Assembly: GCF_013036045.1 (NCBI RefSeq)
Contig: NZ_WTPX01000010.1
Coordinates: forward strand, 1-59,380
DNA from: Alienimonas chondri
Lineage (GTDB): Bacteria > Planctomycetota > Planctomycetia > Planctomycetales > Planctomycetaceae
Length of the DNA stretch: 59,380 nucleotides
Direction of reading: 5' to 3'
The notes below the pieces were generated by a model. It was not told where the DNA came from and ran no database searches. It saw nothing but the letters and a program-made list of their open reading frames with translations. The translations under genes and the position numbers were made by a program. Below are positions 7,002 through 42,514 of this stretch, piece by piece (position 1 is the first letter of the stretch; each line of letters opens with the position of its first letter).

Positions 7002-9539
7002 TCACGCCAGCCGCGAGAGCTTGCGGATCAGCCATTCGAGGCTGAACAGGCCGACGATCAGGAACAGCATCCAGCGAACGTCCCACAGCGCCCGGACCGA
7101 CTCCTCGACCGTGACGGTGCGGTCCCGGGATTCAATCAGCCCCGGCAGCGTCGCCGCGGCGTCGGCGAGCAAGACGTAGCGGCCCTCGGTGCCCTCGGCG
7201 AGGGCGGTCAGCGTGGGGACCTCTTGCCGCACCGTGGACAGTTCCAACTCCGGCAGCGTGGCGGTGATCGAAGCCACGACGTCCTCCGGCGACCCCACGT
7301 CATCGCCGTCGAGCGTCAACGTGAATCGACCGGCCCGCGGCGGGGTGAAGGGCGATTCAAACCGTCCCGGACGGCCCGGGACCGGCGAGAGCGTCAGCGG
7401 GCTGCCCGGCACCGGGAACCCGTCCGGCCCGTCGACCGTCACCCGCACCGTCCCAGCTTCGATCGGCTCACCACGGGCGTCCCGGAGGCCGACCGCGATC
7501 CGCACCGGCTCGCCGACGGGAACCTCGGAGCGGTCGATCAGAAACAGCGCCGGTTCGTCCCCTTCCGTGGCCCGGCCTTCCGCCGCGGAGCGGATCAGGT
7601 TGGTCCAGAAGCGCTCGAATAACTCCGGCCCATTCGCCCGCAGTCGCCAGAACTCAGTCGTACCGAGGTAGAAGACTCGTCCTCCGCCGAATCGTTGATC
7701 CGCTATCAGCACCGTCGTGCCGTCGCCCGTGTTGCGTGGGTCGCCGTGCAGCATCAGGACCGTGGCCAGATCCTTCACGCCTCGCGTCGGATAGGCCCGA
7801 TAAAACCCTTCGAACTGTGACCAGGCGCTGAGATCCCCGGGCTGCTCCGGATCGAGGTCCAGCACGCCGTCCTCCGCCGCGGCGTCGGTTAGTTCCGGCT
7901 GCCAGGGGCGGGTGCTCTCGTCCGAGGCCTCGACCAGGCTCCGCGGCGCCAGCCGCACGGGGAGCAGATTGCGGACGCCGGCGAACGCCGCATCGTCAGT
8001 GAGTTGCGGGGAGTAGACGTCGCCGGCGGCGAAGATCAGCCCGCCGCGCTGCCGATCGACCCATCGCGACAGCGCTTCGACGCTTTCCGGTGAGATGCGG
8101 GACCAGTCCGCGTCGAGGGCCAGCACCACGTCGTAGCGATCCGGGCTGGATTCCGGCCGGGCGTCGCCGGGCGGCCGCAGGGGGAAGGACTCCGGGAACT
8201 CCGCCAGCAGCGCATCGCCGTCCTGCGTCACGCCGGGCAGCTCCGCCGGATCGACCGATTGCAGCAGCACATCCACCTCCGCAGTCGCCTGCCGGGCGAG
8301 GGCGGTCTGCAGGAACCGGTAGTCGCGGTTTGGTCCGCCGGCGATCAGCAGCACGCCGGTCGGCCGGCTGCGGGCGTTGACGACCGCTGAGCGGGCGTTG
8401 TCGTCGGTGCGGGCCTCCCGCGCCCCGGGCGGCGGCGAAAGGGTCACGGTGTAGCGAAAGCGGCCGGTCTCGGCCGGTTCCCGCTCGAAGGTCACCTCCG
8501 CGGATTCGCCATCGGCGGGGAGGGCCAACGTGCGGGTCTCCAACGTTTCGCCCGGAGTCTCGGCGGGGTCCGAGCCGGCCGGGGAGCGGGTGAGGACGAC
8601 CGTCGCCGTCTGCCCCGCCAGCCCCTCAGCTGCGAGAAAGGCACGGATCTCGAAGGGGTCCTGCCGTTCCCTCTCCGGAGCGAAACGGACGTCGGTCGGG
8701 GCGGACAGATCGGTGACCCGCACGTCGGCCGGGCGCTCCGTGCTTCCCACGCCGACAGGGTACAGCGGGACGCCGTCTCGGGCCGCCCGGCCGACCGCGG
8801 CGTCCGCCCCGGCGCCGGCGTTCTGCCCGCCGTCGCTGATCACGATCGCCCCGGCGAGCGTCGGCCCGCGGACCTGCCGCAGCGCATCAGAGATCGCTTC
8901 GCCCAGCCGTGTCTCCCCGCCGTCCGGCTCCAATCGGGCGAGCGCCGCGGCGGCTCCGTCGGCGGGCGAGTCCTCGACCGCAGCGGTCCCGCCGGTGGAC
9001 GTCTCCTCCGGCAGATCGCCGTCGCGGGGCAGTTCCGCGATCAATTCGGCGCCGGCGTCGAAGCCGAAGATCTGCACCTTGTGCGTCCGACGCAGTTCTT
9101 CGATCAAATCCGAGTCGGCGAGTTCCCTGGCGACGGCTTCGGCGCGGGTCTCGCTCACGTCGCCGGACGCTCCGCCGGTGGGGTCGGCGGGCAGTTGCAT
9201 GGACTGGCTTGTATCGACCAGCAGCGCAACCCGACTCGGACGGACGGCCGTCGTCTGGGTCCGCTCGCGGGGATCGAACGCGATCACGCCGAGGCACACG
9301 ATCACCCCAATCCGCAGCGCCAGCAGCCCCGCCCGCAGCGGGCGGGGAAGGGAACGGGTGTCGCGGACGTACAGCCAAACCGTCCACGCCAGCAACGCCG
9401 CGGCGACGCCGAGCAACAGGCTCCAGCCCAGCGGCGTGCGGGGCGGGTTCCACTCGGTCGCGGTCAGCGATTCCAGCCCCGGACCGGACGGCGCCGAACC
9501 GGATTGGGCGAGCAACGAGAGATGGGCGAAGCTGTTCAT
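7002..9539 (-). CDS. Large VWA-domain membrane protein (glutamine amidotransferase-like fold)
   Basis: 845 residues from the ATG at 9539, two bases after the BatA stop. Seen: two transmembrane helices (about 38-58 and 70-88), a von Willebrand A domain from about 102 with MIDAS 'DTSQSM' and 'AIVISDGGQN', a long region of beta-sandwich and class I glutamine-amidotransferase-like segments ('RPTGVLLIAGGPNRDYRF', 'GGLIFAAGD', 'RVFYLGTTEFWRL'), and a C-terminal helix ('WMLFLIVGLFSLEWL'). This architecture is common beside BatA genes in Planctomycetes; no active-site Cys triad is evident, so amidotransferase activity is unlikely. It is the last gene of the MoxR-DUF58-BatA group and probably acts on the periplasmic side of the inner membrane. 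Confidence 0.82.
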   Translation of the reverse strand: MNSFAHLSLLAQSGSAPSGPGLESLTATEWNPPRTPLGWSLLLGVAAALLAWTVWLYVRDTRSLPRPLRAGLLALRIGVIVCLGVIAFDPRERTQTTAVRPSRVALLVDTSQSMQLPADPTGGASGDVSETRAEAVARELADSDLIEELRRTHKVQIFGFDAGAELIAELPRDGDLPEETSTGGTAAVEDSPADGAAAALARLEPDGGETRLGEAISDALRQVRGPTLAGAIVISDGGQNAGAGADAAVGRAARDGVPLYPVGVGSTERPADVRVTDLSAPTDVRFAPERERQDPFEIRAFLAAEGLAGQTATVVLTRSPAGSDPAETPGETLETRTLALPADGESAEVTFEREPAETGRFRYTVTLSPPPGAREARTDDNARSAVVNARSRPTGVLLIAGGPNRDYRFLQTALARQATAEVDVLLQSVDPAELPGVTQDGDALLAEFPESFPLRPPGDARPESSPDRYDVVLALDADWSRISPESVEALSRWVDRQRGGLIFAAGDVYSPQLTDDAAFAGVRNLLPVRLAPRSLVEASDESTRPWQPELTDAAAEDGVLDLDPEQPGDLSAWSQFEGFYRAYPTRGVKDLATVLMLHGDPRNTGDGTTVLIADQRFGGGRVFYLGTTEFWRLRANGPELFERFWTNLIRSAAEGRATEGDEPALFLIDRSEVPVGEPVRIAVGLRDARGEPIEAGTVRVTVDGPDGFPVPGSPLTLSPVPGRPGRFESPFTPPRAGRFTLTLDGDDVGSPEDVVASITATLPELELSTVRQEVPTLTALAEGTEGRYVLLADAAATLPGLIESRDRTVTVEESVRALWDVRWMLFLIVGLFSLEWLIRKLSRLA

Positions 9540-9541
9540 CG

Positions 9542-11860
9542 TCAGGCTCCCGCCCCGTGATAGCCGCAGCGATAGGCCAACGCCGATTCCGCCGCCATGA
9601 GCGCGGCCATCAGGCCGAGCAGCCACCAGCGGATCTCGCGGGATTGCTCCCCGCCGCCGGTCCACGCGGAATCGCCCGCCTCTTGGATCGTGACGTTCTT
9701 CGTCCCGGAGAGCGCGCTCGTGAGCGCCGCGGGGGCGATCAAGGCCAGACGGCTCTCATCCGGGGGGAAGTTCAAAGCGGTCCAGCGATCGACCGGCTCC
9801 CCTTCCGCGGTGGTCAAACGGGACTTGTAGACGCCCGGCAGGTCAGTCTCGTTGTAGCGCGCCGTGAGGAGCAATTCGTCCCCCATGCCCGTGTCCGGCG
9901 GGGCGTCTTCGCCGGGGACGTTCTCCGGCCGCGCCGGCGTCGCCGTGAGCGTCGCGGAGATGTCGTCCGGCTGTTCGATCAAGATGTCCGGCCGGAACCG
10001 GGCGGCGTCGAGGGCGAACTCCAGCGGTTCGCCCGTGATCCCGACAGCGTCGCCGGTGTCGATTCGGGCGGCCCACTCCTGGGCGGGCAGATGGAACAGG
10101 ATGAAGGGCGGCTGCCGCGGCCAGTTCGTCCACTCCGGCTCCTCGTCGGCCACGCTCGTGGCGGCCGTGGTGAGGACGGTCACGATTCGGCCTTCGCCCA
10201 GCGTGGAGACGAGCGCCAGCGGCGAACCGTCCTTGAGCGTGGCGATCGTATTGACGCCGTCGTTCCGGGCGAGGTCGTCCCGTTCCCAATCCGCGGGGAC
10301 CGGCAGATAGCGGGAGACCGTCAGCAGATCGGCGAACAGGTTCTCCCCGACCGTCAACGCCTTGGTGACCGGGTGCTCGGCAAAGCGTACGTCCGGTCCG
10401 GAGCCGGCGTCGGCCGGCAACTCGACGGACGAACCGGACAGCGGCACGGGGAACAGGCCCGCGGGGTACAGCGTGTTCGTGTAGTGGTCGACGTCCACTT
10501 CCCCCCCGAACCAGATCAGGCCGCCGCCGTTCTCGACGTAGCGGGTGAGCGGCCCGACGGCGTCCGCGGGGAGCCGGGGGACGTTCACGACGTAAATCGT
10601 CCAGAACTCCGACAGATCCTCTTTTCGCAGCAAGTCGGTGCCGCCGACGCGCACCTCGCGGCCGGTGAGATCGGGATCGAACAGACGGCTGATCAACGTC
10701 GCCGCGGCGAGGTCCGAGGCGCCGTCCACCACCAACACCGGCACCCGGGGCAGCGCCAATACGGGGCGGGTGAAGGAGTCGTCCTCGACGAGCGTGTCGC
10801 CCGGCAGGGAGACGGTGACCTGGTGCCGGCCCGGGTCGTCGAACTGAACGTCGAACTCGCGTTTGACCGAATCGCCCGGCTCCAGCACCGGGATCGATTC
10901 GCCGAGCGGCAAGGGCTGTCCGTCCAGCGAGGCGGTGAGGTCGAGCCGTTCGCTGGCGACGTCCGCGTCGTTCGTGACCGTCACCTGCACGCGGAGCGGC
11001 ACGCCGACCGCGGCGGTCGCGGCGCCGAAGGACACGTCGGCGACGCGGCGATTCGCCGGAGCGTTCTCGGCCAGGCGAACGAGATTCACCTGCACGCCGG
11101 CGGCGTCCAACCGGGCGACCGCGGCGGCCGTGTCGCCGGCCGCGGTTCCCGTGTCCGAGGCGGGCGCTGGTTCGGCGTTCGGGGCGATCTGGCCGCCCCA
11201 GTCGGCGACGCGGAAGTCAGACAGCAGATGCACCACGCGCTCTCCGGCGTCCTGCTCGGCGGCCAATCGCCGCTCCGCCGCGGCGAGGCCGGCGGCGGGC
11301 CGCAATCGGGAACGCGTCGGTTCGAGCGCGTCGAGTTTCTCCGCCAGATCCGCGAGGAACGCGCTGTTCACGTCCTCGCGGGCGAACAGGGCGCCGTCCG
11401 CTTCGGAGCGGCTCAGCAGCAGCACGGACAGCCGCAGCGAACCGGGCGTGCGGGCCGCCTCGGCGGCGAAGTCTCGCAGCGTGCGTTTCGCGGACTCGAA
11501 AACGTCGCCTTCCTCGCCGGCGGCCCGCATCGAGCCGCTGTCGTCCAGAATCACGACATGATGGGCGACGTTGCCGTCCCGCAGGACGGACAGCGTGCCC
11601 GGATCCAGCACGAGCCTTGCGATCAACGCGGCGGCGGCCAGCACCAGCAGGATCCGCAGCAGCAGCAACAGCAGTTGCTCGATCAGCACCCGCCGCCGGT
11701 TCCGTTGTTCGGACTGGAGCAGGAACTCCATCGCCGCGAACCGCACCTTGCGGAACCGCAAGCGATTAATGAGGTGAATGATGATCGGGGCCGCCGCGCA
11801 CGCCGCCCCGGCCGCGGCGATGCCGGGGTGCAGGAAGAACGGGGCGAGGGTTTCAATCAC
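9542..11860 (-). CDS. BatA-type protein: BatA N-terminal helices plus VWA domain
   Basis: 772 residues with a GTG start at 11860. The N-terminus is the BatA (aerotolerance regulator) signature: a helix, 'HLINRLRFRKVRF', then 'EQLLLLLLRILLVLAAAAL' as a second membrane helix (about 62-83). A VWA domain follows with MIDAS 'ILDDSGSM' near 104-111. Later parts include repeated Ig-like stretches and a glutamine-amidotransferase-like segment ('GGGLIWFGGEVD'); a last transmembrane helix 'IRWWLLGLMAALMAAESAL' closes the protein. Domain order parallels its downstream neighbour, suggesting they form a heteromeric membrane assembly. Function is inferred from the Bat/MoxR family (envelope or redox stress, chaperone-like metal insertion). 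Confidence 0.85.
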   Translation of the reverse strand: MIETLAPFFLHPGIAAAGAACAAAPIIIHLINRLRFRKVRFAAMEFLLQSEQRNRRRVLIEQLLLLLLRILLVLAAAALIARLVLDPGTLSVLRDGNVAHHVVILDDSGSMRAAGEEGDVFESAKRTLRDFAAEAARTPGSLRLSVLLLSRSEADGALFAREDVNSAFLADLAEKLDALEPTRSRLRPAAGLAAAERRLAAEQDAGERVVHLLSDFRVADWGGQIAPNAEPAPASDTGTAAGDTAAAVARLDAAGVQVNLVRLAENAPANRRVADVSFGAATAAVGVPLRVQVTVTNDADVASERLDLTASLDGQPLPLGESIPVLEPGDSVKREFDVQFDDPGRHQVTVSLPGDTLVEDDSFTRPVLALPRVPVLVVDGASDLAAATLISRLFDPDLTGREVRVGGTDLLRKEDLSEFWTIYVVNVPRLPADAVGPLTRYVENGGGLIWFGGEVDVDHYTNTLYPAGLFPVPLSGSSVELPADAGSGPDVRFAEHPVTKALTVGENLFADLLTVSRYLPVPADWERDDLARNDGVNTIATLKDGSPLALVSTLGEGRIVTVLTTAATSVADEEPEWTNWPRQPPFILFHLPAQEWAARIDTGDAVGITGEPLEFALDAARFRPDILIEQPDDISATLTATPARPENVPGEDAPPDTGMGDELLLTARYNETDLPGVYKSRLTTAEGEPVDRWTALNFPPDESRLALIAPAALTSALSGTKNVTIQEAGDSAWTGGGEQSREIRWWLLGLMAALMAAESALAYRCGYHGAGA

Positions 11861-11941: not shown

Positions 11942-12886
11942 TCAACCCCGTGCGCTTTTGCGGAAACCGAGGCGGGAGTTGAGGAAGCGGCTGAGGCTGG
12001 CGTCGAACGGCTCGCTGGTTCGCACGATCTGATAGTCGATCATGTTCGCGGCGCACCGCTTCCGCGTCTCCTCGCAGAAGGCTTCCATCGCCGCGAGGTA
12101 TCCGGCCTTCAGACTGCGGGGATCGCAGGTGACCTCGCCGGTCTCCTCCATGCCCACAAACCGGGTGGTGCCCTGAAAATCGAAGTCGAGTTCCTCGTCG
12201 TCCAGCACATGGAACACCAGCACGTCGTGTCCCCGACTGCGAAGCATCCGCAGGCCGCGGTAGGTGGCGTCGCGGTCGGAGAACAGATCGCTGAACAGCA
12301 CGACCATTCCGGGGCGGCGTTGCTCCTCCGCGGTGCGGGCGAGGATCCCGCCGAGGTCGGTCTTCTCCGCGGGGGCGGTCGAACCGAGCGTGCCCAGCAG
12401 GGTGTTGAGGTGCGTCTTCTTCCCCCGATGCGGCACCGCGGCTCGCACGCCTTCCCCGAAGACTGTCATCCCGACGGAGTCCTGCTGTTTGAGCAGCAGA
12501 TAGGCGATCGCTGCGGCCAGCGTGGCGGCGTAATCCGCCTTGTTCATCGGGCCGTTGCCGTAGCCCATGCTCTCCGAACCGTCCACCAGCAGCGTGGTGC
12601 GGAGGTTCGTGTCCTCCTCGAACAGCTTGACGTAGTACTTGTCGGTCTTGCTCCAGACCTTCCAGTCGATGTGACGGGCCTCGTCGCCGGGGACGTATTC
12701 CCGGTGCTGGCTGAACTCGACGCTCTGCCCGAAATACGGACTGCGGTGCAGGCCGTCGAGCACGCCCTCCACGACTTGCCGAGCCCGGACCTCCAACTTC
12801 CCAATGCGGGCCAACGCCTCAGGCGTGAGGTGATCCCGCCCCCCCGGGGGACCGGTGCGGCGGGCGGCGGGGGACGTGTCGGCCAA
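11942..12886 (-). CDS. DUF58 domain protein (VWA-like)
   Basis: 314 residues. Seen: the DUF58 signature 'YVPGDEARHIDWKVWSK' (Gly-Asp-x-x-Arg-x-Ile-Asp-Trp), preceded by 'HREYVPG', then a VWA-like fold beginning 'TTLLVDGSESMGYGNG' with an intact DxSxS. DUF58 proteins almost always pair with MoxR ATPases. The start is TTG at 12884-12886: an AGGAGA Shine-Dalgarno at 12895-12900 lies eight bases upstream, which decides it. An 81-base gap separates it from batA, with no structure seen. Confidence 0.85.
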   Translation of the reverse strand: MADTSPAARRTGPPGGRDHLTPEALARIGKLEVRARQVVEGVLDGLHRSPYFGQSVEFSQHREYVPGDEARHIDWKVWSKTDKYYVKLFEEDTNLRTTLLVDGSESMGYGNGPMNKADYAATLAAAIAYLLLKQQDSVGMTVFGEGVRAAVPHRGKKTHLNTLLGTLGSTAPAEKTDLGGILARTAEEQRRPGMVVLFSDLFSDRDATYRGLRMLRSRGHDVLVFHVLDDEELDFDFQGTTRFVGMEETGEVTCDPRSLKAGYLAAMEAFCEETRKRCAANMIDYQIVRTSEPFDASLSRFLNSRLGFRKSARG

Positions 12887-13667: not shown

Positions 13668-13784
13668 TAGGCTGCGGCGCGCGGCACGACGGCAGGTCCG
13701 GGCTTGCGGCAATAATAGACGGTCAGGAAACGAAATCGCCCGCGGAGGTTGGGCCGCGGGCGAAGTCGATCAATACCTAACGCG

Positions 13785-14907: not shown

Positions 14908-15006
14908 GGCGAGACAACCGGGGCGTGTTCGGGCAGTCGGGGTCCTTTTTGATAGGAGCCTTACAGACCAGCTTGTGCTTCAAACGAGCTCCCCCTAATC
15001 GGCTAG

Positions 15007-16074
15007 TCACGCCGCTTTCTGGAAAACCCCCGCGAAACGCGGGTCGCTGGTCAGCTTGCCTTCGGCTTGCGGGGTCTCATTGACGAGGCGTTCGACGACT
15101 TTGTCCGTGGTGACGCCGTCGGACTCGGCGGCGAAGTTGCAGACGATGCGGTGACGCAGCACCGGGGCGGCGAGGGCGGCGATGTCCTCCGTGCTCACGT
15201 GCGTGCGGCCGGCGAGCAGGGCTTTCGCCTTGGCGCCCAGCAACAGCATCTGCACGGCCCGCGGGCCGGCGCCCCAGCTGAGCGATTCCTTCATGAACTC
15301 CGGGGCGCCCGGTTCGTTGATCCGCGTCTGACGGACCAACGCGAGGGCGTATTCGATCACGTGGTCGCTGGCCGGCACCTGACGGACCAATTTTTGGAGC
15401 TCCACGATCTCCGGGCCGGAGAGGACCGGGTCGATCTCGTCGGCGCTCACGCCGGTGGTGGCGCGAGCGATCTGCTTCTCTTCCTCAAAGCTCGGATAGC
15501 CGACGTAGACCTTGAACATGAAGCGGTCCTGCTGGGCCTCGGGCAGCAGGTAGGTGCCTTCCTGCTCGATCGGGTTCTGCGTCGCCAGCACGAAGAACGG
15601 GTCCGGCAGGGCGTGCCGTTGTTGGCCGACGGAGACCTGCCGTTCCTGCATCGCTTCCAGCAGCGCCGCCTGGGTTTTGGGCGGGGTCCGGTTGATCTCG
15701 TCCGCCAGCACCACGTTGTGGAACAGCGGACCGTTGAGGAAGCGGAACTCGCGATCGCCGGTGTCCCGGTTCTGCTGGAGCACGTCCGTGCCGGTGATGT
15801 CCGCCGGCATCAGGTCGGGCGTGAACTGAATGCGGGCGAAGCTCATGGAGAGCGTCCGCGCCAGCGTGGAGATCATCAGCGTCTTCGCCAGCCCCGGCAC
15901 GCCTTCCAGCAGGCAATGCCCCCGGCTGAATAGGGCGATCAGCAGCTGGTCGATTACCTCGTCCTGCCCGACGATGATCCGGCCGACCTGAGCCTTGATG
16001 TCCCGGTACGCGGCGCCGACGCGTTCGATGGCGACGTCGGGGTTCTCTTCCAACTTGATGTCCGGGGCGGTCAT
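15007..16074 (-). CDS. MoxR-type AAA+ ATPase
   Basis: 355 residues from the ATG at 16074. Seen: Walker A in the MoxR-specific form 'EGVPGLAKT', Walker B '[21 protein letters not shown]', the pre-sensor region 'MQERQVSVG', sensor 1 '[20 protein letters not shown]' and 'DRFMFKV', and a C-terminal lid domain with 'ISWGAGPRA'-like '[14 protein letters not shown]'. MoxR ATPases act as chaperones that remodel or activate partner complexes, usually with DUF58 and VWA proteins encoded next door. Here the partners start 2.1 kb downstream on the same strand, after three unrelated genes. Confidence 0.93.
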
Positions 16075-16201
16075 GTCGGCGGCTCGGGGTGTCGGGGGCG
16101 GGTCGCGGGGAGGGCACAGCATCCGCGGGGGGACGTTGGTCCGCCAGTCCCCGCGCCCCCGCCCCGCGCTCGCATGCCGCGCCCGGGCCGCGGCGCCGCG
16201 G

Positions 16202-18301
16202 TCAGTCGCCGACCGGAGCCAGTTGGACCGCATCGGCGATCGTGTAGCCCTCGCGGCCCGCTTCGAGCGTGACCGTCACGGTCGAGCCGGGCCGCACGGA
16301 GATGCCCTCCAGCGTCCGCCACGGCCCTTCGCCGCCGGCGGCGGTCTGGTCGATCGCGGTGCCGGCCGTCTCGCGGCGGACGCCGTCGTCGACGGTCAGA
16401 AAGGCGGACCGCGTGCGGTTCGGGTGGGGCACGGAAGCGACCCGCAACTCGTAGCGGCCTTCCTCGGGAACCTTCAGCGTGAAGACGGCGGTCGGGGGAT
16501 CGCCTTCGCCGTCCCACGTGACCGCCCGATAGCCGCCGTCGATGTAGGGGCCGACGGCGCCGCTGTTCACCCAAGCGCCGGTGAACTTGGCCGATTCATC
16601 GTCCACGACGACGCCCTTCAGGGAGGCGGACCGAATCCGCTTCACGCCGCCGGTCCATTCCAGCACCTGTTCGTCGGCCAGCAGGCGCTCCCGGAGGACC
16701 TCGTAGTCCACCTGTTGCACGGGCTTGTCGCCGTCCACCGCCATCACCGCGGCGGTCGCGGCGCTCTGGCCGAGAACCATGAACACCGGTTCCATGCGAA
16801 TGGAGCCATAAGCGATGTGGGACGCGGCCATCGCGACGGGCACCAGCAGGTTCGTCGCTTCTTCCTGTTTCGGCACGATCGAGCCGTAGCCGATCGGGTA
16901 GGGGGGGAAGCCGCCCTGTTGCACGTCGCCCTCGTTCTGCACGTGGCCGTTTTCGTCCACGTACCGCCAGACGTTGTGCGAATCCATCGTGTAGGCGGCC
17001 AGGCCGACGGGGTCGTCCGCGACGACGTCGCCGACGCAGTCCGCCTGGGTCATCACCCGCTGGCCGACCATCCGCCGAGCCTCTCGGATATACAGCTGCG
17101 GCGGCCAGCCGCCGGTCGCTTCGAATTCATCCGCGGCCAATCCCCAGTTGCTGTAGTAGTTGCGGACGGACTCCGGCACGCGGGGGTGATTGGCGAGGGA
17201 CCACATCAAGCCTTTCTGATAGCGCTCATGGGCGGCGATGATGGCGGCCCGTTCTTCGTCGGTGGCCTCGGGATAGTCGTGGTTCTGGCCGATCCAGTCG
17301 GTGGAGACGGCGTGATTGTTGTTCGAGTCCGTCTTGCGATTCGGCATCATCACCGGGTTCCACGGCTTACGGAGGTCGCCGGCCTCGAAGTTGCGGAACA
17401 GCAATTCGTACAGGCTCTCGTCGTACCCCTCCGGCTTCGGCCACGCTTTGCGGTTGGCGGCGACGTCGGTCGCGCACAGGCGGAAGCAGTAGGCCTGCAC
17501 GCCGTCGTCGCCGGCGCCGGAGGGCGGCAGCGGTTCGGTCCGCACCTGCGGCAGGATGCCGGCGTTCGGATCGCCCGCGACGACGTACGGATCGACCGGC
17601 ACGACGAAGCGGTGATTTTTGTAGTTCAGTGCCGGCCGCACGCCGTTGTAGGTCTCGCCGTAAACGGATTCGCCCTCGCGGCCGACGTGGTAGCTCACGC
17701 CCGCGGCGGCCATCAGATCGCCCTCGTAGGTCGCGTCGATGAAGACCTCGCCTCGGACGTCGGCGCCGTTCTTGAGGCGGAACGACACGATGCGGCCGTC
17801 TTCCATCGTCACCCCGCCCTCGCTGCGATCGAGGGGCGCCTCCATCATCGGTTCGACGTCGACTTCCGCCAACATCTCTCGGTAGATGTTCATGGCGACG
17901 TGCGGCTCGAAGGTCCAGAACGGCTCCGGGTTGTCGGGGTCGAGGGCCGGGGCGGCGCCGCGTTTATTGCGATAGTCGTTCGGCGCTTCCTGAACCCAGC
18001 TGGCCGAGTCGGCGTAGTGCTTGCCGACGCGGGTGTAGAACTCGCGGGAGATCCCGCCGATCGCCGCTTTGTTGCCGATGTCGGTCGCCCCCAGGCCGCC
18101 CGTCGTCAGCCCGCCGAGGTGGGAGGACGGTTCGATCAGCAGCACGCTCTTGCCCATCCGACGCACCTGGATCGCGGCGGCGATGCCGCCGCTGGTGCCG
18201 CCGTAGATCACGACGTCCGCTTCGTATCCCGCCTGAACGGGGGCTTCCTCTACCCCCGTCGGGGCGGCGAAGGCGACAAGTAACAACGCGGACGACAGCA
18301 T
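16202..18301 (-). CDS. Secreted FAD-dependent oxidoreductase with C-terminal golvesin/xanthan-lyase-type domain
   Basis: 699 residues from the ATG at 18301, chosen over one nine codons upstream because GGAG (18309-18312) lies seven bases before it and a signal peptide '[14 protein letters not shown]' follows at once. The FAD domain (about 25-540) has a dinucleotide-binding motif '[17 protein letters not shown]' and the conserved '[14 protein letters not shown]'; the family (FAD-dependent oxidoreductase, PF12831) is abundant in Planctomycetes and usually extracytoplasmic. Residues about 570-699 form a beta-rich domain like those in golvesin and xanthan lyase-associated proteins ('AVTWDGEG', 'YELRVASV', 'ADAVQLAPV'), probably carbohydrate-binding. 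Substrate not known; a sugar is plausible. Confidence 0.85.
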
Positions 18302-26837: not shown

Positions 26838-26988
26838 GGGCGGCGTCCAATGGCGGCGAATCAACCCGATCAGTCGAGCCGACGGATCAGGACCGGGCGC
26901 GATCCCCCTGAAAATGCCAGGGGGCGGCCGGAATGCGGGGGCATAGCAGCCCCCCGCCGTCCGCTCCAACCCGGAACCTCGCGCGGCG

Positions 26989-27774
26989 TTACTTCGCGCG
27001 CGACAGACCTTCACCCAACGCCAGCGCCTCGGATGCCCCGAGCACGCGCTCGTTCGACTCGAACAGCGCCCGGATCGCGGCTTTGTGAATCTTCATCTTC
27101 AATCCGCCGATCGCCAAGGCGCCGTAACAGCGGACGCCGTCGCGGTCTTCACCGTCGTCCTGCGACTCGACGCCCGCGATCCCCGTGGGGGGAACCGCGT
27201 TCAGGTCGACCGCCGTGGTCACGCCGGCGGAACGCAGGGCGTCTAACGTCGCGATCTCCACGCCCGCGGGACCGCAGACGAACGCCGCGGTCGCCCCGTC
27301 CAAGGCTTCTTGGACCGAATCGGCGTTTGGCCCGCGCTCCGGCGTGGGATCGTAGGTGCGAACCGTGACGCCTTCCTCGGCCAGCAGGGCCGCGACGCGG
27401 CTGCCCACCGGTCCTAGTCCCAGCACCGCGGCTTCGCCCTCGAACTTCGCGGCCAACACCGCCGCCGCCGCGGTCGTGCTGGACCCGTTCGGATCGCACA
27501 GCAGGCTGACCCGCAGCGGACCGAAGAAGGCGTGCGACACGGCGTCCGCGACCTCCTCCGCCTCCCAGGCGTCCGAGCCGCCGACGAAAATAGCCGTGTG
27601 CTTCAGATCCTGAGGACCGCGGGTGAAGATGGTGCCGTGCACCAAGGCGACGGCGTTCTCCGGGGTGACGCCGCCGTACGACAGAACCTCATCCGCCCCC
27701 GCATCCAAGGCGACGATGCGGTCGAACGCGGACGGGTGAGCGTCCGCGTCGAGGTGCAGGAGGATGCGTTTCAT
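26989..27774 (-). CDS. mtdB: NAD(P)-dependent methylene-tetrahydromethanopterin dehydrogenase
   Basis: Oxidises methylene-H4MPT to methenyl-H4MPT with NAD(P)+, the step after Fae in formaldehyde oxidation. 261 residues. Seen: 'LHLDADAHPSAFDRIVALDAG', 'YGGVTPENAVALVHGTIFTRG', 'HTAIFVGGSD', 'FFGPLRVSLLCDPNGSSTTAAA', Rossmann motif 'LGLGPVGSR' and the end 'FGALAIGGLKMK'-like 'YGALAIGGLKMKIHKA'. It is about 25-30 residues shorter than MtdB of Methylobacterium, the loss lying after the Rossmann motif. Planctomycetes carry both MtdB and MtdC types and I cannot tell which this is. 52 bases downstream of fae. Confidence 0.87.
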   Translation of the reverse strand: MKRILLHLDADAHPSAFDRIVALDAGADEVLSYGGVTPENAVALVHGTIFTRGPQDLKHTAIFVGGSDAWEAEEVADAVSHAFFGPLRVSLLCDPNGSSTTAAAAVLAAKFEGEAAVLGLGPVGSRVAALLAEEGVTVRTYDPTPERGPNADSVQEALDGATAAFVCGPAGVEIATLDALRSAGVTTAVDLNAVPPTGIAGVESQDDGEDRDGVRCYGALAIGGLKMKIHKAAIRALFESNERVLGASEALALGEGLSRAK

Positions 27775-31180: not shown

Positions 31181-33625
31181 ATGCCCCCGCCGCCCGCCAC
31201 CGCGGAGATCGCCGGCCGGCCGTCCGCCGCGTTGCGGCCGGAACTCCACGGATTGCTCTCCGCGGTCCGCGGTCGCCTGCGTCGCTACGTCCTCCTCCGC
31301 GGGCTGGCGATCCTGGCGCTCACCGCCGTCGGCGTGTTCTGGGCGGCGCTGTGGCTCGACGACTTCTGGTTCTTCCTCACCCGGCTCGAACTACCGAACT
31401 GGCTGCGAATCGGGTTCGACGGCGCCGCGATCCTGCTGCTGCTGGGGGTGGCGGCGGTCTGGTTGATCGGGCGCTTGGTCATCTCCGCCGGCCCCCGCGA
31501 CCTCGCCCTCGCCGCGGAACGACGGTTCCCGGATCTCCGCGGCCGGCTCGTGCTGGCCGTCGAGCGCGCCCAGAACCCCGGATTGGCGCAGCAGGAATCG
31601 CATTTCACCGCGGCCCTCGCCGATCGCGCCGCGGCGGACGCCGCCGAACGCGTGCGGTCGCTTCCGCCGGGCGAGTTGTTCGACCCTGTCCCGCTGCGTC
31701 GCTCCCTGGCTCTGGCGGTCGTGCTGACGGTCGGCACCGTCGCGTTCGGTCTCTGGCAGACGGACGCTGTGCGGCGGTTGTCCGACGCCTACGTTCAATT
31801 GGCGGACATCTACCGGGTTCGCGAGACGTCGCTGACCGTCGCCGCGGTGCTTCCGCCGGGCGAAGAAACGAAGCCGTTGACGCCCGGCGAAGCGCACCGG
31901 CATCCCCGCGGGGCGGACCTCGTCCTGTTGATCGACACGCCCTCCGGCGAGCGCCCCGGCGGCGGCCCGTGGCGTGCGCCGGAGCAGGTCACCGTCACCC
32001 GCGAGACCGCCGGCGGCGCCACCGGCCGCAGCTTCGCGCTCCCGGACGGCCCGGGCCGATTCCGCTTCGCCCTCGATGAAGTCCGCGACGGCATGACCGT
32101 CTGGCTCTCCGGCGGCGATTTCGTCACCCGAACGCCGTACGTCATCGACGCCGTCGATCCGCCCCGCCCGAGTCGCGTGGCCGTCTCCGCGAAGTTTCCG
32201 CGATACACCGGGCTGAACAGCGAGGACGCCGACGGCAATTTGCTCCCCGAGGTTCGCCCGGTTCGCGGCGCCAAAGCGACCGTGCCGGTGGGGACGGAGT
32301 TCGAACTGGTTCTCGACGCCAACAAGCCTCTCGCCGCCGCCCGGGTGACGATCGACGGCGAGGCCGTGCCGACGGTGATGGATTCTGAGGACGGAGAGAC
32401 GGCCGTTCGGATCCCGCTGACGATGCTGCCCCCGAAGTCCGACGCCCCGGACGCGCCGGAAGATCCGTTTAGCGCCGCCGAGGGGACCGTCGGCGTCCGA
32501 CCCGGCGCCCGGGTTGCGGTGGAATTGGAAGACGCCGACGGCATCCGCAGTCAGTCGCCGGTCCGGCTGGTGTTGGCCGGTGTGGTCGACGATCCGCCCG
32601 CCGTCCGCGCGGAACCCACCGGCGTCTCCGACGCCCTCACCCGCACCGCGTCGGTGCCGTTCGTCGGCACGATTGCGGACGACTACGGCGTCGCCACCGC
32701 CCGCTTTCTCTACAAGTTGGTTGAGGAAGCGAACGAGGCGACGGACGGCGTGGCCGAGGCGGACGGCGAGGACGCGGACGATCCCCCGGAATCGGCCTCG
32801 GAGTGGCGGGAACGGCGCTTCCGCGTTCGTCCCCGCGGCCTGCCGGAACAATTCGACGTCGGCGATCCCGACCCGGCCCTCACCGCCGACCGCGACGCGG
32901 AGCGATTCGAGATCGCCGGGCTCGACCTGAAAGTCGGCCAGACGCTGACCGTGGTGGTCGCCGCGTCGGACGCCAACGATCTGACCGGTCCCGGCGAGGG
33001 CCGCGGCCCCGAACGCTCCTTCCGCATCGTCACCCCGGAGGAACTGCTCGCGCGGTTGTTCGACCGCGAAGTCAACCTGCGGCGGATCTTCGAGCGCAGC
33101 TTGGAGGAGGTCACCGCCTCCGGCGACGACCTCTCACTGATCACTGCGGAGACCTCCGCGGCCGACGTCCGCCGCACCGCGGGTCTCGCCTCGAGCGAAC
33201 TGGGGCAGAACGCCGGCCAGGCGGAGGCCGTTCGCAGCGGATTCCGGGAGATTCTCGCCGAACTGGTCAACAACGCGGTGCAGAACTCGTCGGCGGTGTC
33301 TCGATTGGAGGAGCTGATCCTCGAGCCGTTGACCGTGATCACCGACGACCTGTTCCCCGAAGCGGATCGCGCCGCGGGCGCCCTGGGGGCGGCCGCGGAA
33401 ACCGGCGCTTCGGGGCCGGAACGAGCCGCCGCCGCCGCCGCCGCCGCCCAGGCCACCGAGCGTCTCGCCTCCGCGATGGCGAAGGTCTTGCAGGAGATGG
33501 AAGACCTCGCGGAATACCATGAAGCGGTGCGAGACTTGCAGTTGCTGGTGCAGGCGCAGGAGGAACTGCTCGAACGCACCAAGCGTGAACAGAAGACCGA
33601 CCTCATCGACGGACTCTTTGAATGA
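31181..33625 (+). CDS. DUF4175-like membrane protein
   Basis: 814 residues, first gene of the operon to 42514. Seen: three transmembrane helices near the N-terminus ('LRGLAILALTAVGVFWAALW', 'GAAILLLLGVAAVWLIGRL', 'SLALAVVLTVGTVAFGLW'), then a large extracytoplasmic region of beta-rich Ig-like repeats (e.g. 'RVAVSAKFPRYTGLNSED'), the 'PFVGTIADDYGVATARFLY' segment typical of DUF4175, and a C-terminal helical part with a run of eight Ala encoded by eight GCC codons (33425-33448) followed by a coiled coil. Families of this type sit next to BatA/VWA genes in Planctomycetes. It probably spans the inner membrane with its bulk in the periplasm. Its stop overlaps the next start (ATGA). Confidence 0.8.
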   Translation: MPPPPATAEIAGRPSAALRPELHGLLSAVRGRLRRYVLLRGLAILALTAVGVFWAALWLDDFWFFLTRLELPNWLRIGFDGAAILLLLGVAAVWLIGRLVISAGPRDLALAAERRFPDLRGRLVLAVERAQNPGLAQQESHFTAALADRAAADAAERVRSLPPGELFDPVPLRRSLALAVVLTVGTVAFGLWQTDAVRRLSDAYVQLADIYRVRETSLTVAAVLPPGEETKPLTPGEAHRHPRGADLVLLIDTPSGERPGGGPWRAPEQVTVTRETAGGATGRSFALPDGPGRFRFALDEVRDGMTVWLSGGDFVTRTPYVIDAVDPPRPSRVAVSAKFPRYTGLNSEDADGNLLPEVRPVRGAKATVPVGTEFELVLDANKPLAAARVTIDGEAVPTVMDSEDGETAVRIPLTMLPPKSDAPDAPEDPFSAAEGTVGVRPGARVAVELEDADGIRSQSPVRLVLAGVVDDPPAVRAEPTGVSDALTRTASVPFVGTIADDYGVATARFLYKLVEEANEATDGVAEADGEDADDPPESASEWRERRFRVRPRGLPEQFDVGDPDPALTADRDAERFEIAGLDLKVGQTLTVVVAASDANDLTGPGEGRGPERSFRIVTPEELLARLFDREVNLRRIFERSLEEVTASGDDLSLITAETSAADVRRTAGLASSELGQNAGQAEAVRSGFREILAELVNNAVQNSSAVSRLEELILEPLTVITDDLFPEADRAAGALGAAAETGASGPERAAAAAAAAQATERLASAMAKVLQEMEDLAEYHEAVRDLQLLVQAQEELLERTKREQKTDLIDGLFE

Positions 33626-37803: not shown

Positions 37804-39492
37804 ATGAACGTTCGAGCTTCGCTCGCCGTCGCGATTCTCGCGTGCGGCGCCTCCGCAAACCTTCGCGCGGCGGACGTTCCGCTCGAAGTGGCCCCCTCCG
37901 TCCTGGAGGCTCAGGCCGCCCGGGCGGCGGTGATCGAACGCATCGCCCCGACGGTCGTCGCGATCTTCGGTCCGGACGGCGGCGGGGGCGGGTCGGGCGT
38001 GCTGATCTCCGCGGACGGATACGCCGTCACGAACTTCCACGTGACCGACGGCTGCGGCGACGCGATGAAGTGCGGGCTGAACGACGGCAAGGTCTACGAC
38101 GCCGTCATCGTGGGCACCGACCCGGTCGGCGACGTGGCTCTGATCAAACTGCTGGGTCGGGACGACTTCCCGGTCGCCGAATTCGGCGACAGTGACGCTG
38201 TCCGCCCCGGCGACTGGTGCCTGGCGATGGGCAACCCGTTCCTGTTGGCGAAATCGGACTTCGCCCCGACCGTCACCTACGGCCTGGTCAGCGGCACGCA
38301 TCGCTATCAGGAGCCGGCCGGCACCTTTCTCGAATACACCGATTGCCTGCAGATCGACGCCAGCGTGAACCCCGGCAACTCCGGCGGGCCGTTGTTCGCC
38401 GCGGACGGCGCCGACGCCGGCAAGCTGATCGGCATCAACGGCCGGATCAGCATCAAGCGGGGCCGGGTGAACAGCGGCGCCGCCTATGCGATCAGTTCCA
38501 ATCAGGTGAAGTACTTCCTGGGCCATCTCCGCAGCGGGCGAGCGCTGGATCATGGGACGTTGAATGCGACCGTCCGCACGAACTTCGACGGCGACGTGCT
38601 GTTCGATCGCATCCTCGACGGCTCTGCGGCACAGATTCGCGGGGTGAAGGAGGGCGACGAGCTGGTCGCCTTCGCGGGGCGGCCGATTCGCAGCGTGAAC
38701 CAATTCAAGAACGTTTTAGGCGTCTATCCGGCCGGCTGGCCGCTGCCGTTGACCGTGCGGCGAGGCACGGAAACGATCGACCTGATCGTGCGCACCCGCG
38801 GCCTGAACCGCCGGACGGATCTCCTCAAAACCGTCGCCCCCAAACCGGGGCCGCCGCCGAACGACGTGGTCAAACCGCTGTTGGAGAAGCGCCCGGGCTA
38901 CGTGAACGCCCACTTCAACGAGGTGGAGAGGGATCGCGTGCTCGCCTCCCTGGGTTCGGCGCTTCCCGCCGCCGGCTGGCGAATCGCCGGCGCCGACGCC
39001 GACGGGGTGGAGGCGGAGTTCACCCTCAGCGACCGCGGCGTCGGTTTGAAGCTGGGGGCCAACCGCTTCCTGCAATCGCTGGAGGACGACGCCGAGGTGC
39101 TGAACGAGCCGCCCGGGAGCGGCGGGCTGCTATTCGCCCTGCGGCAATGGCAACTGCTGCGAAGCGGCCGCACGACCGACTTCGCCGATCTGCACTACGT
39201 CGGGACCGAGCCGCTCGACTGGGACGGCCCGACCGTCGACGTGCTCGAAGCGGAGAACCGGGGCGTCGTGACCCACTTCTATATCGAAGTCGGCCAAGAC
39301 GGGACCGGCATGCTGCGCGGCTTCGATTCCTGGCAGGAGAACCGCGGCGCCGCCACGGAGGTGCGCTTTGACGGCGACCGGCTCGACGGCTCGTTGCCGG
39401 TCCCGTCGCAGATGCGCGTCGCGGCCGGCGGTGCGCCTTACCGCACTTTCAAGTTCACCACCGCGACCGTTGCGTCGGGAGAGAGCGAATGA
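37804..39492 (+). CDS. HtrA-like trypsin-type serine protease with PDZ domain (intact triad)
   Basis: 562 residues from the ATG at 37804: GAGG (37791-37794) lies nine bases upstream and a signal peptide 'SLAVAILACGASANLRA' follows. An in-frame ATG at 37789 adds five residues. Seen: full catalytic triad His79 ('VTNFHVTDG'), Asp110 ('PVGDVALIKL') and Ser193 ('NPGNSGGPLF'), then a PDZ domain (about 265-345) with 'GVKEGDELVAFAGRPI', and a C-terminal region of about 200 residues of unknown fold. A periplasmic quality-control or signalling protease. First of three tandem homologues; stop overlaps the next start by four bases. Confidence 0.9.
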   Translation: MNVRASLAVAILACGASANLRAADVPLEVAPSVLEAQAARAAVIERIAPTVVAIFGPDGGGGGSGVLISADGYAVTNFHVTDGCGDAMKCGLNDGKVYDAVIVGTDPVGDVALIKLLGRDDFPVAEFGDSDAVRPGDWCLAMGNPFLLAKSDFAPTVTYGLVSGTHRYQEPAGTFLEYTDCLQIDASVNPGNSGGPLFAADGADAGKLIGINGRISIKRGRVNSGAAYAISSNQVKYFLGHLRSGRALDHGTLNATVRTNFDGDVLFDRILDGSAAQIRGVKEGDELVAFAGRPIRSVNQFKNVLGVYPAGWPLPLTVRRGTETIDLIVRTRGLNRRTDLLKTVAPKPGPPPNDVVKPLLEKRPGYVNAHFNEVERDRVLASLGSALPAAGWRIAGADADGVEAEFTLSDRGVGLKLGANRFLQSLEDDAEVLNEPPGSGGLLFALRQWQLLRSGRTTDFADLHYVGTEPLDWDGPTVDVLEAENRGVVTHFYIEVGQDGTGMLRGFDSWQENRGAATEVRFDGDRLDGSLPVPSQMRVAAGGAPYRTFKFTTATVASGESE

Positions 39493-40556
39493 TCGTCGCC
39501 GCGACCCTTCTCGCCTGCGGGCTGTTCGCGGAGGACCCGGCGATCGAGGACGCGGGCGTCGCGACCTCCGCCCGGGCCGTGACCGCGGAGACGCTGCCGA
39601 AGGTGGTCAAGATCTTCGGCGCCGGGGGCCTGCGCGGACTGCCCGCCTACGGGACCGGGTTCCTCATCTCGCCGCGTGGGCATGTCGCGACGGCGTGGAA
39701 CCACGTGCTCGACGCCGATCCGAACATCCTCGTCGTGCTGGACGACGGGCGCCGGCTGACCTGCAAGTTGCTGGCCGCCGATCCGTCACGTGGCCTCGCA
39801 GTACTGGAGCCGGAGCGTGACGACCTCGACCTGCCCCACTTCGATCCCGCGACCTTCGCCCCCGCCGAAGCTGGCGCCCGCGTGCTGGCGTTCTCGAACT
39901 CCTACAAAGTGGCCGGCGGCGATGAACCGGTCGCGGTGCAGCGGGCGGTGATCAGCGCCGTTGCGGAACTGGACGCCCGCCGGGGAAGGAACGCCGCGGG
40001 CATCGCCGGGCCGGTGCTGATCCTCGACGCCCCCACGAACAACCCCGGCTCCGCGGGCGGCCCGATTGTCGATCGTCGCGGTTCGTTGGTCGGGATCATC
40101 GGCCGCGAACTCAAGAACGACGCGACCAACGTGTTCGTCAACTACGCCTTGCCGGCCGAGAAGATCGGCGAGACGCTGACGGCGATGATGGAAGACGATT
40201 TCGTCGCGACGTCCTCGGCGTCGATCGCGCTATCTGGCGGTCCGCAGCCGGCGGATCTCGGCGCGTTGCTCGTCCCGGACGTCGTCCGCCGCACGCCGGC
40301 TTACGTCGAACTCGTTCAACCCGACTCCCCCGCGGCGGCCGCCGGTCTGCGAGCCGGAGACCTCATCGTGTTGATCGACGGCGAACTCGTGCCCTCGATC
40401 CGCCTGCTGCGGTCCCGTTTGGCCGCCGTGGAGCCGGGCGAACCGGTGGACCTCGTCGTTCGCCGCGACGGCGAACTGGTGCCGCTGACCGTCGCCGTGC
40501 CGGAGGTCGAAGACCTCCGCGATCCGCCCGCCGAACTTCCCCGCGACCGCCGCTGA
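39489..40556 (+). CDS. HtrA-like pseudoprotease with PDZ domain (Asp and Ser lost)
   Basis: 355 residues. Seen: a short signal 'IVAATLLACGLFAEDPA', a trypsin-like fold with His72 retained ('ATAWNHVLDADP'), but Gly102 where Asp belongs ('ADPSRGLAVLEP') and Ala189 where the nucleophile belongs ('NNPGSAGGPIVD' aligning with NPGNSGGPLF in the upstream gene), so it cannot work as a serine protease. A PDZ domain follows ('VELVQPDSPAAAAGLRAGDL', about 275-340). Overall architecture otherwise matches its upstream neighbour. Probably a regulatory or scaffolding paralogue. Start overlaps upstream stop (ATGA), stop overlaps downstream start by one base (TGATG). Confidence 0.85.
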   Translation: MIVAATLLACGLFAEDPAIEDAGVATSARAVTAETLPKVVKIFGAGGLRGLPAYGTGFLISPRGHVATAWNHVLDADPNILVVLDDGRRLTCKLLAADPSRGLAVLEPERDDLDLPHFDPATFAPAEAGARVLAFSNSYKVAGGDEPVAVQRAVISAVAELDARRGRNAAGIAGPVLILDAPTNNPGSAGGPIVDRRGSLVGIIGRELKNDATNVFVNYALPAEKIGETLTAMMEDDFVATSSASIALSGGPQPADLGALLVPDVVRRTPAYVELVQPDSPAAAAGLRAGDLIVLIDGELVPSIRLLRSRLAAVEPGEPVDLVVRRDGELVPLTVAVPEVEDLRDPPAELPRDRR

Positions 40557-42514
40557 TGACTTCGTCTCTGTTGTTCGCCGCTCCGCTGTCCGCGGCCCTG
40601 CTGTGCCTGGTTCAGTCCGAGCCGGCCGACGTGGCGGCGCAAGAGGAGGCCGCGTTCAAGGCCGTGGCCGCCGCGGTGGCGCCCTCCGTCGTGCGGATCG
40701 AAACGCTCGGCGGCGTCGATACCGCGGACGGACGTCTGCTCGCGTCCGGACCCTCGACCGGCACGGTGGTCCGGGCGGACGGGTTGATTCTCACGAGCAG
40801 CGAGAACCTCGCCGGCGATCCTACGTCGATCCTGATTCGCCTGCCGGATGGCCGCCGCGTGACGGCCGAGCGGCTCGGCGAGGACGAGCCGCGCCAATTG
40901 ACGCTCCTGCGGGCGAACCTGCCCGAGGACGGGGGCGGCGTCTCTCCCGCGTCTCCCGCTGCGATCGACGAAGTACGAGTCGGCGATTGGGCGATCGCCG
41001 TCGGACGGACGTTCTCCGCGGAGAACGTGAACGTCTCCGTGGGCGTCGTCAGCGCCAAGGGGCGTATTCTCGGCCGGGCCGTGCAGACGGATGCGAAGAT
41101 CAGTCCGGCGAACTACGGCGGGCCGCTGGTCGATCTGACGGGACGCACGATCGGGATTCTGGCGCCCCTCACCGCGGACGGCGGATCCGGCGGCGTGGAG
41201 TGGTACGACAGCGGGATCGGATTCGCGGTGCCGCTGGCGGATCTCGAACCGGTGCTCGACCGTTTGGCGGCCGGCGAGACGCTCCAGGCGGGCCGGTTGG
41301 GGGTCACGTTCAAGAGCGCGAGTCTCGATGCCGAACCGATCGTCGATACCGTCCGCCCGCTCTCACCGGCGGAGGCGGCCGGGGTCCAACCGGGCGATCG
41401 CCTGGTGACCGTCGCTGGCCGGCCCGTCTCGCGGCCCGACGAAGCGAAACTGGCGTTGGGTCCGCACTACGCCGGGGACGAAGTCACGCTGGTGGTGGAG
41501 CGGGACGGCAAAGAAGAGCGGCTCTCCGCGACCCTCGTCGCCGAGTTGCCCCCCTGGCGGCCGAGCGACCTCGGCGTGCTGCCCGCCGATCCGAGGGACG
41601 CCGATGAGGCAGAGGCCGAAGGTGAGGAGGCCGACGCCGTTGCCGGGGTCGCGATCGCACACGTCTTTTCGGAGACAGCCGCCGACGGGGTCTTGGAGGT
41701 GGGCGACGTCGTCGTGGAAGCCGCGGGGGAATCGGTGGAGACGGGGGACGATCTTCGTCGGATCGTTTCCCGCCGGCCCCCGGGCACGGAACTCCTACTC
41801 AAGTTGGTGAATGGGGACACCGCGACTGCGACGCTCGGCGAGCCGCCGTCGACCGTGCCAGACACGGCGCCGTCGACGATCGATCCCAAGTCGGATCCGC
41901 TGCCGGCGGATCAGAGCGGTCGGCTGCCCCTGGAGGTGGCGGGCTTCGAGGGCCGATCGGGGGCACTGCTGGTGCCGAAGCGAGCGGGCCGCGGGGGCTT
42001 GGGACTGCTGGTGTGCTTGCCGCCGAAGGGATCGCTCACCGCCGACGACCTCTTTGATCGTTTCGGCCCCGCCGCGGAGCGCGAGGGGGTGATCCTGTTG
42101 GCCCCGAATCCCGAGAATCCGGATGGGTTCCAGCCCGGCGACCTGCCGTTCTTCGCCGCGGCGCTGGAGCAGATGCGAGAACGGTATGCCGTCGAACCGG
42201 TCCGCACGGCTCTGTACGGCACCGGGGGGCAGGGACAGACCGCTTGGCGCATCGTTCTCACGGCGAAGAGCGACTATCGAGGTTTGGTGACAGACGTGGC
42301 GCCCGCGCAGCTCGCCCCGAACGAGCCGGATCAGGCGATTGTGCCGCTGTTGATCGGCGAACCGCCGGAAGAATCCCGCGAGGCGATGCGCGAGGCCGGC
42401 TATCCGTTCGCCTATATCGAGGTGAAGACCGAGGGCGAGGAGAGCGACGCTGATCTGTCGGACGAGGCGATCGACGCGATCGTGCGGTGGGTGACGGTGC
42501 TTGATCGCATCTGA
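40556..42514 (+). CDS. HtrA-like pseudoprotease with two PDZ domains and an alpha/beta-hydrolase-like tail
   Basis: 652 residues. Seen: signal peptide 'LLFAAPLSAALLCLVQSEPA'; a trypsin-like domain (about 30-240) in which His, Asp and Ser are replaced by Glu83 ('LTSSENLAGD'), Gln114 ('DEPRQLTLL') and Tyr187 ('SPANYGGPLVD'); two PDZ domains (about 240-325, with 'PLSPAEAAGVQPGDRL', and about 350-425, with 'SETAADGVLEVGDVVVEAAG'); then a region (about 455-652) with strand-helix order of an alpha/beta-hydrolase ('LGLLVCLPPKG', 'GVILLAPNPENPDGF', 'ALYGTGGQGQTAW'), whose nucleophile elbow has Gly instead of Ser. Both halves look non-catalytic. Last gene of the operon. Confidence 0.83.
   Translation: MTSSLLFAAPLSAALLCLVQSEPADVAAQEEAAFKAVAAAVAPSVVRIETLGGVDTADGRLLASGPSTGTVVRADGLILTSSENLAGDPTSILIRLPDGRRVTAERLGEDEPRQLTLLRANLPEDGGGVSPASPAAIDEVRVGDWAIAVGRTFSAENVNVSVGVVSAKGRILGRAVQTDAKISPANYGGPLVDLTGRTIGILAPLTADGGSGGVEWYDSGIGFAVPLADLEPVLDRLAAGETLQAGRLGVTFKSASLDAEPIVDTVRPLSPAEAAGVQPGDRLVTVAGRPVSRPDEAKLALGPHYAGDEVTLVVERDGKEERLSATLVAELPPWRPSDLGVLPADPRDADEAEAEGEEADAVAGVAIAHVFSETAADGVLEVGDVVVEAAGESVETGDDLRRIVSRRPPGTELLLKLVNGDTATATLGEPPSTVPDTAPSTIDPKSDPLPADQSGRLPLEVAGFEGRSGALLVPKRAGRGGLGLLVCLPPKGSLTADDLFDRFGPAAEREGVILLAPNPENPDGFQPGDLPFFAAALEQMRERYAVEPVRTALYGTGGQGQTAWRIVLTAKSDYRGLVTDVAPAQLAPNEPDQAIVPLLIGEPPEESREAMREAGYPFAYIEVKTEGEESDADLSDEAIDAIVRWVTVLDRI

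Follow-up and report, generated by a model that had tools for sequence, protein, structure and literature searches.

An HtrA-type protease and two probably dedicated non-catalytic paralogues encoded side by side in Alienimonas chondri and other Planctomycetota

The stretch of DNA analysed here, called the window throughout, comprises 59,380 nucleotides of contig NZ_WTPX01000010.1 of Alienimonas chondri (assembly size 5.3 Mb, 355 contigs) and carries three consecutive genes for HtrA-like proteins, which we call HtrA1, HtrA2 and HtrA3. Of the three, HtrA1 alone has a complete catalytic triad. HtrA2 and HtrA3 are HtrA-fold pseudoproteases, each with a trypsin-like domain, PDZ and an incomplete triad, and the trait common to their orthologues is the loss of the catalytic serine in HtrA2 and its replacement by tyrosine in HtrA3. 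The safest wording is that the genes appear to encode one protease and two dedicated non-catalytic paralogues. We further propose, with a probability of about 60%, that the trio would be one functional unit outside the cytoplasm, in which HtrA1 cuts and HtrA2 and HtrA3 are its dedicated non-catalytic partners.

The three proteins and their former active sites

HtrA1 (562 residues; 37804..39492, plus strand, as are the other two genes) has the triad His79 (38038..38040), Asp110 (38131..38133) and Ser193 (38380..38382, in the motif NPGNSGGP), assigned by alignment with the Deg proteins of Escherichia coli and with relatives. The corresponding residues are His72, Gly102 and Ala189 in HtrA2 (355 residues; 39489..40556), with Ala189 at 40053..40055 in NPGSAGGP, and Glu83, Gln114 and Tyr187 in HtrA3 (652 residues; 40556..42514), with Tyr187, which is kept in relatives, at 41114..41116 in SPANYGGP. 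When the trio is aligned with DegP, DegQ and DegS of E. coli, the Asp and Ser positions of all three proteins agree with this assignment. For HtrA2 the His column is either Asn71 or His72, a single gap deciding between them, and in HtrA3 a histidine is absent from that column in either alignment. A sequence-only reading of the window had placed the trio at 37804-42514 and had named exactly these residues, which apart from the sliding His column of HtrA2 are borne out by the Deg alignment, and had described genes overlapping at their start and stop codons: HtrA1 and HtrA2 indeed overlap in ATGA (39489-39492), and HtrA2 and HtrA3 share one base within TGATG (40554-40558). Judged by eye, the trio proteins have N-terminal hydrophobic stretches. 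As a control, ten of the 11 other Trypsin_2 proteins of the same genome align with His, Asp and Ser (one of them, L194, weakly). The eleventh, a weak member of the family (L195, G000:C307:5600-8300), shows Arg, Gly and Ser in its triad columns and is perhaps another pseudoprotease.

The Pfam family Trypsin_2 is matched by HtrA1, HtrA2 and HtrA3 with 100.2, 76.2 and 69 bits, respectively, all above the cut-off of 27.6. PDZ is found above its cut-off once in HtrA2 and in two stretches of HtrA3; the PDZ match of HtrA1 is weak (18.1 bits against a cut-off of 23.2), so that the earlier statement that all three keep PDZ domains stands for HtrA2 and HtrA3 and is weakly borne out for HtrA1. The NCBIfam model for Do proteases covers residues 62-332 of HtrA1 with 192 bits, and none of the three proteins reaches its cut-off of 416 bits. 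The AlphaFold models of HtrA2 and HtrA3, each folded as a single chain, have a predicted local distance difference test score (pLDDT) of 84.5 and 86.4, respectively. The HtrA3 model, compared mainly over residues 21-332, matches the solved HtrA structure 1y8t with a Z score of 27.6 and a root-mean-square deviation (r.m.s.d.) of 4.2 over 273 aligned residues. For HtrA2 the corresponding values are Z = 25.3 and an r.m.s.d. of 15.0 over 274 residues with 4ynn, and Z = 24.5 and an r.m.s.d. of 2.7 over 197 residues with the protease part of 3stj.

HtrA3 ends in a tail (41882..42511, plus strand) that had been described earlier as alpha/beta-hydrolase-like with a glycine in place of the nucleophile. 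As a single sequence the tail of the window has no match to known families, and when tails are searched singly any one family matches at most six of 21 members. A profile built from 21 orthologues leads to esterases, with LC-Est1C as the top match (E = 3.5e-17), which led us to drop the idea of an unrelated or new fold and upholds the description, not from the window tail alone but from the orthologues taken together. The nucleophile elbow of the window tail reads GTGGQ, with Gly557 (42224-42226, plus strand, located by alignment of the tails) at the position of the nucleophile. The motif GxSxG is left in one of 110 scored tail rows, and Ser stands at the nucleophile position in ten of 113 aligned rows, gapped rows counted. 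With the triad broken and the hydrolase nucleophile motif gone, HtrA3 thus looks inactive twice, as a protease and in its hydrolase tail.

Conservation, order and descent of the trio

Relatives were compared in two sets: set A, made up of the window plus 32 relatives (33 loci in all), and set B, comprising 80 named loci from another collection, the best 80 of at least 559 relatives. The sets have genomes in common, and their counts are not additive. HtrA1 has His, Asp and Ser in all 27 of its set A rows, window included, and in 55 of 59 set B rows, the other four being gapped. At the serine position of HtrA2 all 28 set A loci with this gene have Ala or Gly (window included, and with one partial gene, in G020), and in set B Ala in 46, Gly in 14 and Gln in two of 62; in distant families Pro, Gln, Phe, Tyr or Asp also occurs. 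The serine position of HtrA3 is Tyr in 33 of 33 loci of set A, window included, and 80 of 80 of set B, and the sequence Asn-Tyr-Gly-Gly is invariant. Within the main trio, none of the scored rows of HtrA2 and HtrA3 has Ser, Thr or Cys at the serine position.

The other two positions vary more freely. In HtrA2 the Asp position is still acidic (Asp or Glu) in 22 of the 27 set A rows scored there and in 57 of 62 of set B, and the His position holds His in all 19 scored same-family rows of set A and in 32 of 62 rows of set B, with Tyr in 27. The His position of HtrA3 is Phe in 75 of the 80 set B loci and its Asp position is Met in 62 of 80; Glu83 is found, among the 33 set A loci, only in the window and a genus-mate, and Gln114 recurs in a few other loci. 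The sequence-only reading had suggested that relatives be checked for the same gene order and the same lost residues. The order, the loss of Ser in HtrA2 and the Tyr of HtrA3 are indeed shared, and Gly102 of HtrA2 and Glu83 and Gln114 of HtrA3 are uncommon among relatives. At no locus with scored residues do all three homologues have full triads.

The three genes lie in the order 1-2-3 in 27 of the 33 set A loci; of the other six, three (G006, G019 and G020) are at contig ends and three (G007, G011 and G021) have HtrA3 without the others nearby. In set B the order is 1-2-3 in 59 loci, 2-3 in three and HtrA3 alone in 18. Nine of these 21 incomplete loci have more than 6 kb of sequence upstream of HtrA3, and since that sequence is present HtrA3 is truly apart in them; the rest have less than 3 kb.

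Co-occurrence was scored in 392 Planctomycetota genomes, which include relatives and hence are not independent observations, using three profiles with cut-offs chosen from earlier scores. That for HtrA3 was set by hand in the gap between 3.4e-81 and 1.1e-70 and that for HtrA2 was 1e-48 (weakest match listed 7.1e-54); the HtrA1 cut-off of 1e-85 has no clean gap, with second matches at 5.1e-87 in G082 and 5.7e-86 in G156. At these cut-offs HtrA1 is found in 69 genomes, HtrA2 in 66, HtrA3 in 67 and the full trio in 66, HtrA1 is alone in two (G045 and G060) and none of the 392 genomes has HtrA2 or HtrA3 in the absence of HtrA1. The very small hypergeometric value calculated for this co-occurrence is not a probability, given the relatedness of the genomes. 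The order 1-2-3 on one strand is found in 60 of the 66 full-trio genomes. In G253 HtrA1 is on a separate contig from the rest, and in G125 and G143 the trio is complete but dispersed; these two and the three genomes with a distant HtrA3 considered below (G340, G377 and G397) still have His-Asp-Ser in HtrA1, Ala or Gly in HtrA2 and Tyr in HtrA3. The trio also occurs in the named strains Blastopirellula marina DSM 3645 and Planctomycetales bacterium 10988.

In a maximum-likelihood tree, built by a quick method with Shimodaira-Hasegawa-like approximate likelihood-ratio (SH-aLRT) support only, HtrA2 (support 100), HtrA1 (90) and HtrA3 (99, the G045 rows excepted) form clades of their own, distinct from the E. 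coli Deg sequences and, by eye, broadly alike in their inner branching. Since the clades are separate and branch in this similar way, the triad losses are older than the split of the lineages compared. The 'stepwise loss' of the triad from gene to gene that had been read from the window does not hold as an evolutionary series: HtrA2 and HtrA3 are old, separately conserved pseudoenzymes, and HtrA2 orthologues mostly keep Asp or Glu at position 102. The ratios of nonsynonymous to synonymous substitution (dN/dS) in the protease domains of HtrA1, HtrA2 and HtrA3 are 0.082, 0.087 and 0.137, from Nei-Gojobori counts for one genome pair, the window and its genus-mate; in this pair the protease domains of HtrA2 and HtrA3 are under purifying selection. 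Decay of HtrA2 and HtrA3 as duplicates, or their origin in sequencing errors, found no support and can practically be dismissed, the losses being conserved among relatives, the trio kept in 66 of 392 genomes and dN/dS low. The C-terminal domain of HtrA1 (residues ~341-562, ~220 residues; 38824-39489) belongs to no Pfam family and, with a dN/dS of 0.26, is evolving faster than the protease part.

In six genomes of four families (G075, G413, G395, G263, G283 and G082) HtrA1 and HtrA2 are a single open frame, of 1045 residues in G082 (L235, G082:C31:12500-19500), and in each fusion the first domain has a whole triad and the second lacks the Ser. One family with a fusion (f51) also has genomes with separate genes (G162 and G092). 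A second arrangement was recognized among loci chosen by eye from the search list, which are not a random sample. Its order is pseudo-pseudo-active at six loci (G044, G077, G223, G235, G313 and G122); in G051 two pseudo-domains share one frame with the active one next, and G045 has the active domain first and two pseudo-domains after it. All eight loci contain exactly one complete triad. The three genes fill the 3.2 kb contig of G313, where a fourth gene is possible, and in G197 and G346 the contig begins within the locus. One pseudo-domain of G044 has Asp and Ser and is missing only the His, and one of G045, outside the main trio, has Thr at the serine position. When the second arrangement is added to the tree, the active proteins of that arrangement group with HtrA1 (89), and the pseudo-members are placed beside HtrA3 (93). 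With this placement, and with HtrA2 on a long branch, one pseudo-member is no more than a candidate HtrA2 orthologue.

The gene cluster upstream

The trio lies at the end of a conserved gene cluster of envelope type. Upstream of it on the plus strand are U814 (31181..33625; 814 residues), P6 (33622..35499), P5 (35535..36575) and P4 (36572..37792), conserved neighbours that recur as a block in several other families of the phylum. P4 is an NPCBM-domain protein. P5 and P6, the latter with a low-complexity middle of EGEPKEPG-type repeats, have no Pfam family above the cut-off, and the similarity of U814 to DUF4175 is sub-threshold (E = 0.0012; 17.4 bits against a cut-off of 27.3), so that this assignment was rejected.

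On the minus strand, some 15 kb away from the HtrA cluster, positions 7002-16233 of the window carry genes for a MoxR-type AAA ATPase (15007..16233), a DUF58 protein (11942..12886), a BatA-type protein (9542..11860) and a VWA-like protein (7002..9665; below cut-off). Counterparts of these four directly precede the cluster in seven of the nine relatives from which upstream DNA was taken (G002, G013, G018, G023, G024, G028 and G037, and not G001 or G027); the Pfam check of this module covered G002 only, with VWA below the cut-off. In this the surroundings of the trio may resemble the Bat or MoxR-DUF58-VWA clusters. The trio differs from them in that passages on the Leptospira Bat proteins do not mention an HtrA trio (PMC3557215); the function of the Bat proteins is itself described there as unsettled. 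In G056 (L215) MoxR and DUF58 genes lie inside the cluster, between the NPCBM gene and HtrA1. The window also encodes a large Omp85/POTRA protein (23721-27014, minus strand), and adjoining it is a gene with the N-terminal domain of methylene-tetrahydromethanopterin dehydrogenase (26989-27774).

Joint action and its alternatives

The conserved losses and the co-retention of the genes support the earlier proposal of an active HtrA protease accompanied by two dedicated pseudoproteases, and point to selection that maintains these two. The mixed oligomer that the earlier proposal gave as an example is suggested by the fusions and the co-retention. The fusions, the dispersed complete trios and the second arrangement are hints of joint action, and a joint complex of HtrA1, HtrA2 and HtrA3 is what we infer. 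HtrA enzymes are trimers. As three paralogues are kept, HtrA1 and HtrA2 occur as one chain and the count of one active and two dead members recurs in another order, a mixed trimer is the form that we favour. Tentatively, this would be an obligate heterotrimeric HtrA of the Planctomycetota, composed of an active subunit and two inactive ones that differ from each other, so that each position of the trimer has its own subunit, the set being kept through gene reordering and fusion. Such a trimer, possibly 1:1:1, would be the simplest form of the complex. Its dead subunits would maintain an active or regulated conformation of HtrA1, and substrate could be brought in via the PDZ domains of HtrA2 and HtrA3 and the dead hydrolase tail of HtrA3. 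The client would be an envelope machine built with the NPCBM protein and the unnamed neighbour proteins, to which the MoxR/DUF58/BatA/VWA-like module may also belong in several relatives.

Known systems offer partial parallels. DegP, DegQ and DegS of the Do family are homo-oligomers of active subunits; they share the fold and domain order of the trio, and the triad with HtrA1, and differ in that the trio proteins form separate clades. The plant paralogues Deg5 and Deg8 act together, in a mixed hexamer. According to passages of PMC3640471 their effect is synergistic and, unlike HtrA2 and HtrA3, both have a catalytic triad. The nearest precedent is the pair of an active HtrA protease and a pseudoprotease, MamE and MamO, of magnetotactic bacteria, where passages of PMC4794232 describe the presence of MamO, not its triad, as needed to promote MamE activity; these are magnetosome genes, with one pseudoprotease instead of two. 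The structural matches of the HtrA2 model include MamO structures along with many active HtrAs. Membership in the MamO family was rejected, as the trio proteins score 51.5, 41.0 and 15.2 bits against the NCBIfam MamO cut-off of 800, and the MamE cut-off is also far above their scores. In passages of PMC11252331 a dead HTRA1 variant rescues an assembly mutant in mixed trimers, which were engineered and are not a dedicated gene set. Given the MamE/MamO and HTRA1 precedents, a mixed active and dead HtrA could work.

Trios of this kind were not found in titles or abstract openings of open-licence literature on planctomycete HtrA, pseudoproteases, MoxR/Bat or mixed trimers, among the matches listed. 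Passages of a survey of PDZ proteins report many in planctomycetes and do not contain the words 'inactive' or 'catalytic triad' (PMC6411480), and in a 2024 review of HtrA proteins of Gram-negative bacteria (PMC11642142) the terms 'pseudo', 'inactive subunit', 'heterotrimer', 'hetero-oligomer', 'mixed' and 'Planctomycet' are all absent.

Several observations weigh against a single functional unit. All six fusions join HtrA1 to HtrA2 and none involves HtrA3. HtrA3 is apart from HtrA1-HtrA2 in G340, G377 and G397, as it is in G007, G011, G021 and the nine of 80 set B loci with more than 6 kb upstream, and the tie of HtrA3 to the set would therefore be looser. At the chosen cut-offs G226 has HtrA1 and HtrA3 without HtrA2. 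In G290 (L209) a single pseudo-domain, with Glu at the serine position and lying at a contig start, has no active partner within 8 kb. A shared pathway without contact may also explain the co-retention.

The distance of HtrA3 from HtrA1-HtrA2 at some loci, and its possession of a tail of its own, would fit a different arrangement, in which HtrA2 and HtrA3 form their own homo-oligomers and act for the same envelope machine as its chaperones, adaptors or scaffolds, sharing clients with HtrA1 without being its subunits. DegP-type proteins are capable of chaperone action without proteolysis, which also speaks for it. We consider this arrangement unlikely in view of the six genomes with an HtrA1-HtrA2 fusion, the recurrence of one active and two dead members in the second arrangement and the co-occurrence counts, where no genome has just HtrA1 and HtrA2 or just HtrA2 and HtrA3 at the chosen cut-offs and G226 has HtrA1 and HtrA3. 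It is improbable that the pseudoproteases have instead gained a binding function unrelated to proteolysis, for a metal or ligand near the former active site. MamO provides an example of this (PMC4794232), and the invariant Asn-Tyr-Gly-Gly of HtrA3 resembles a kept rather than a decayed site; no ligand motif was found, the di-histidine site of MamO not having been searched for. That HtrA2 and HtrA3 are still catalytic through residues outside the classical triad is very improbable: in set A all 19 scored same-family rows of HtrA2 do retain the His, and 22 of 27 rows have Asp or Glu, but the serine position lacks a Ser, Thr or Cys throughout the scored rows of the main trio, to which the G045 locus with its Thr does not belong.

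One protease with two non-catalytic partners thus remains the reading that we prefer for the trio. The role of pseudoenzymes is hard to assign, and this phylum offers a case in which many lineages retain two distinct dead paralogues alongside a protease. With the trio one can test directly whether an HtrA trimer may consist of dedicated catalytic and dedicated regulatory subunits. The trio also points to an uncharacterized envelope quality-control machine of the Planctomycetota.

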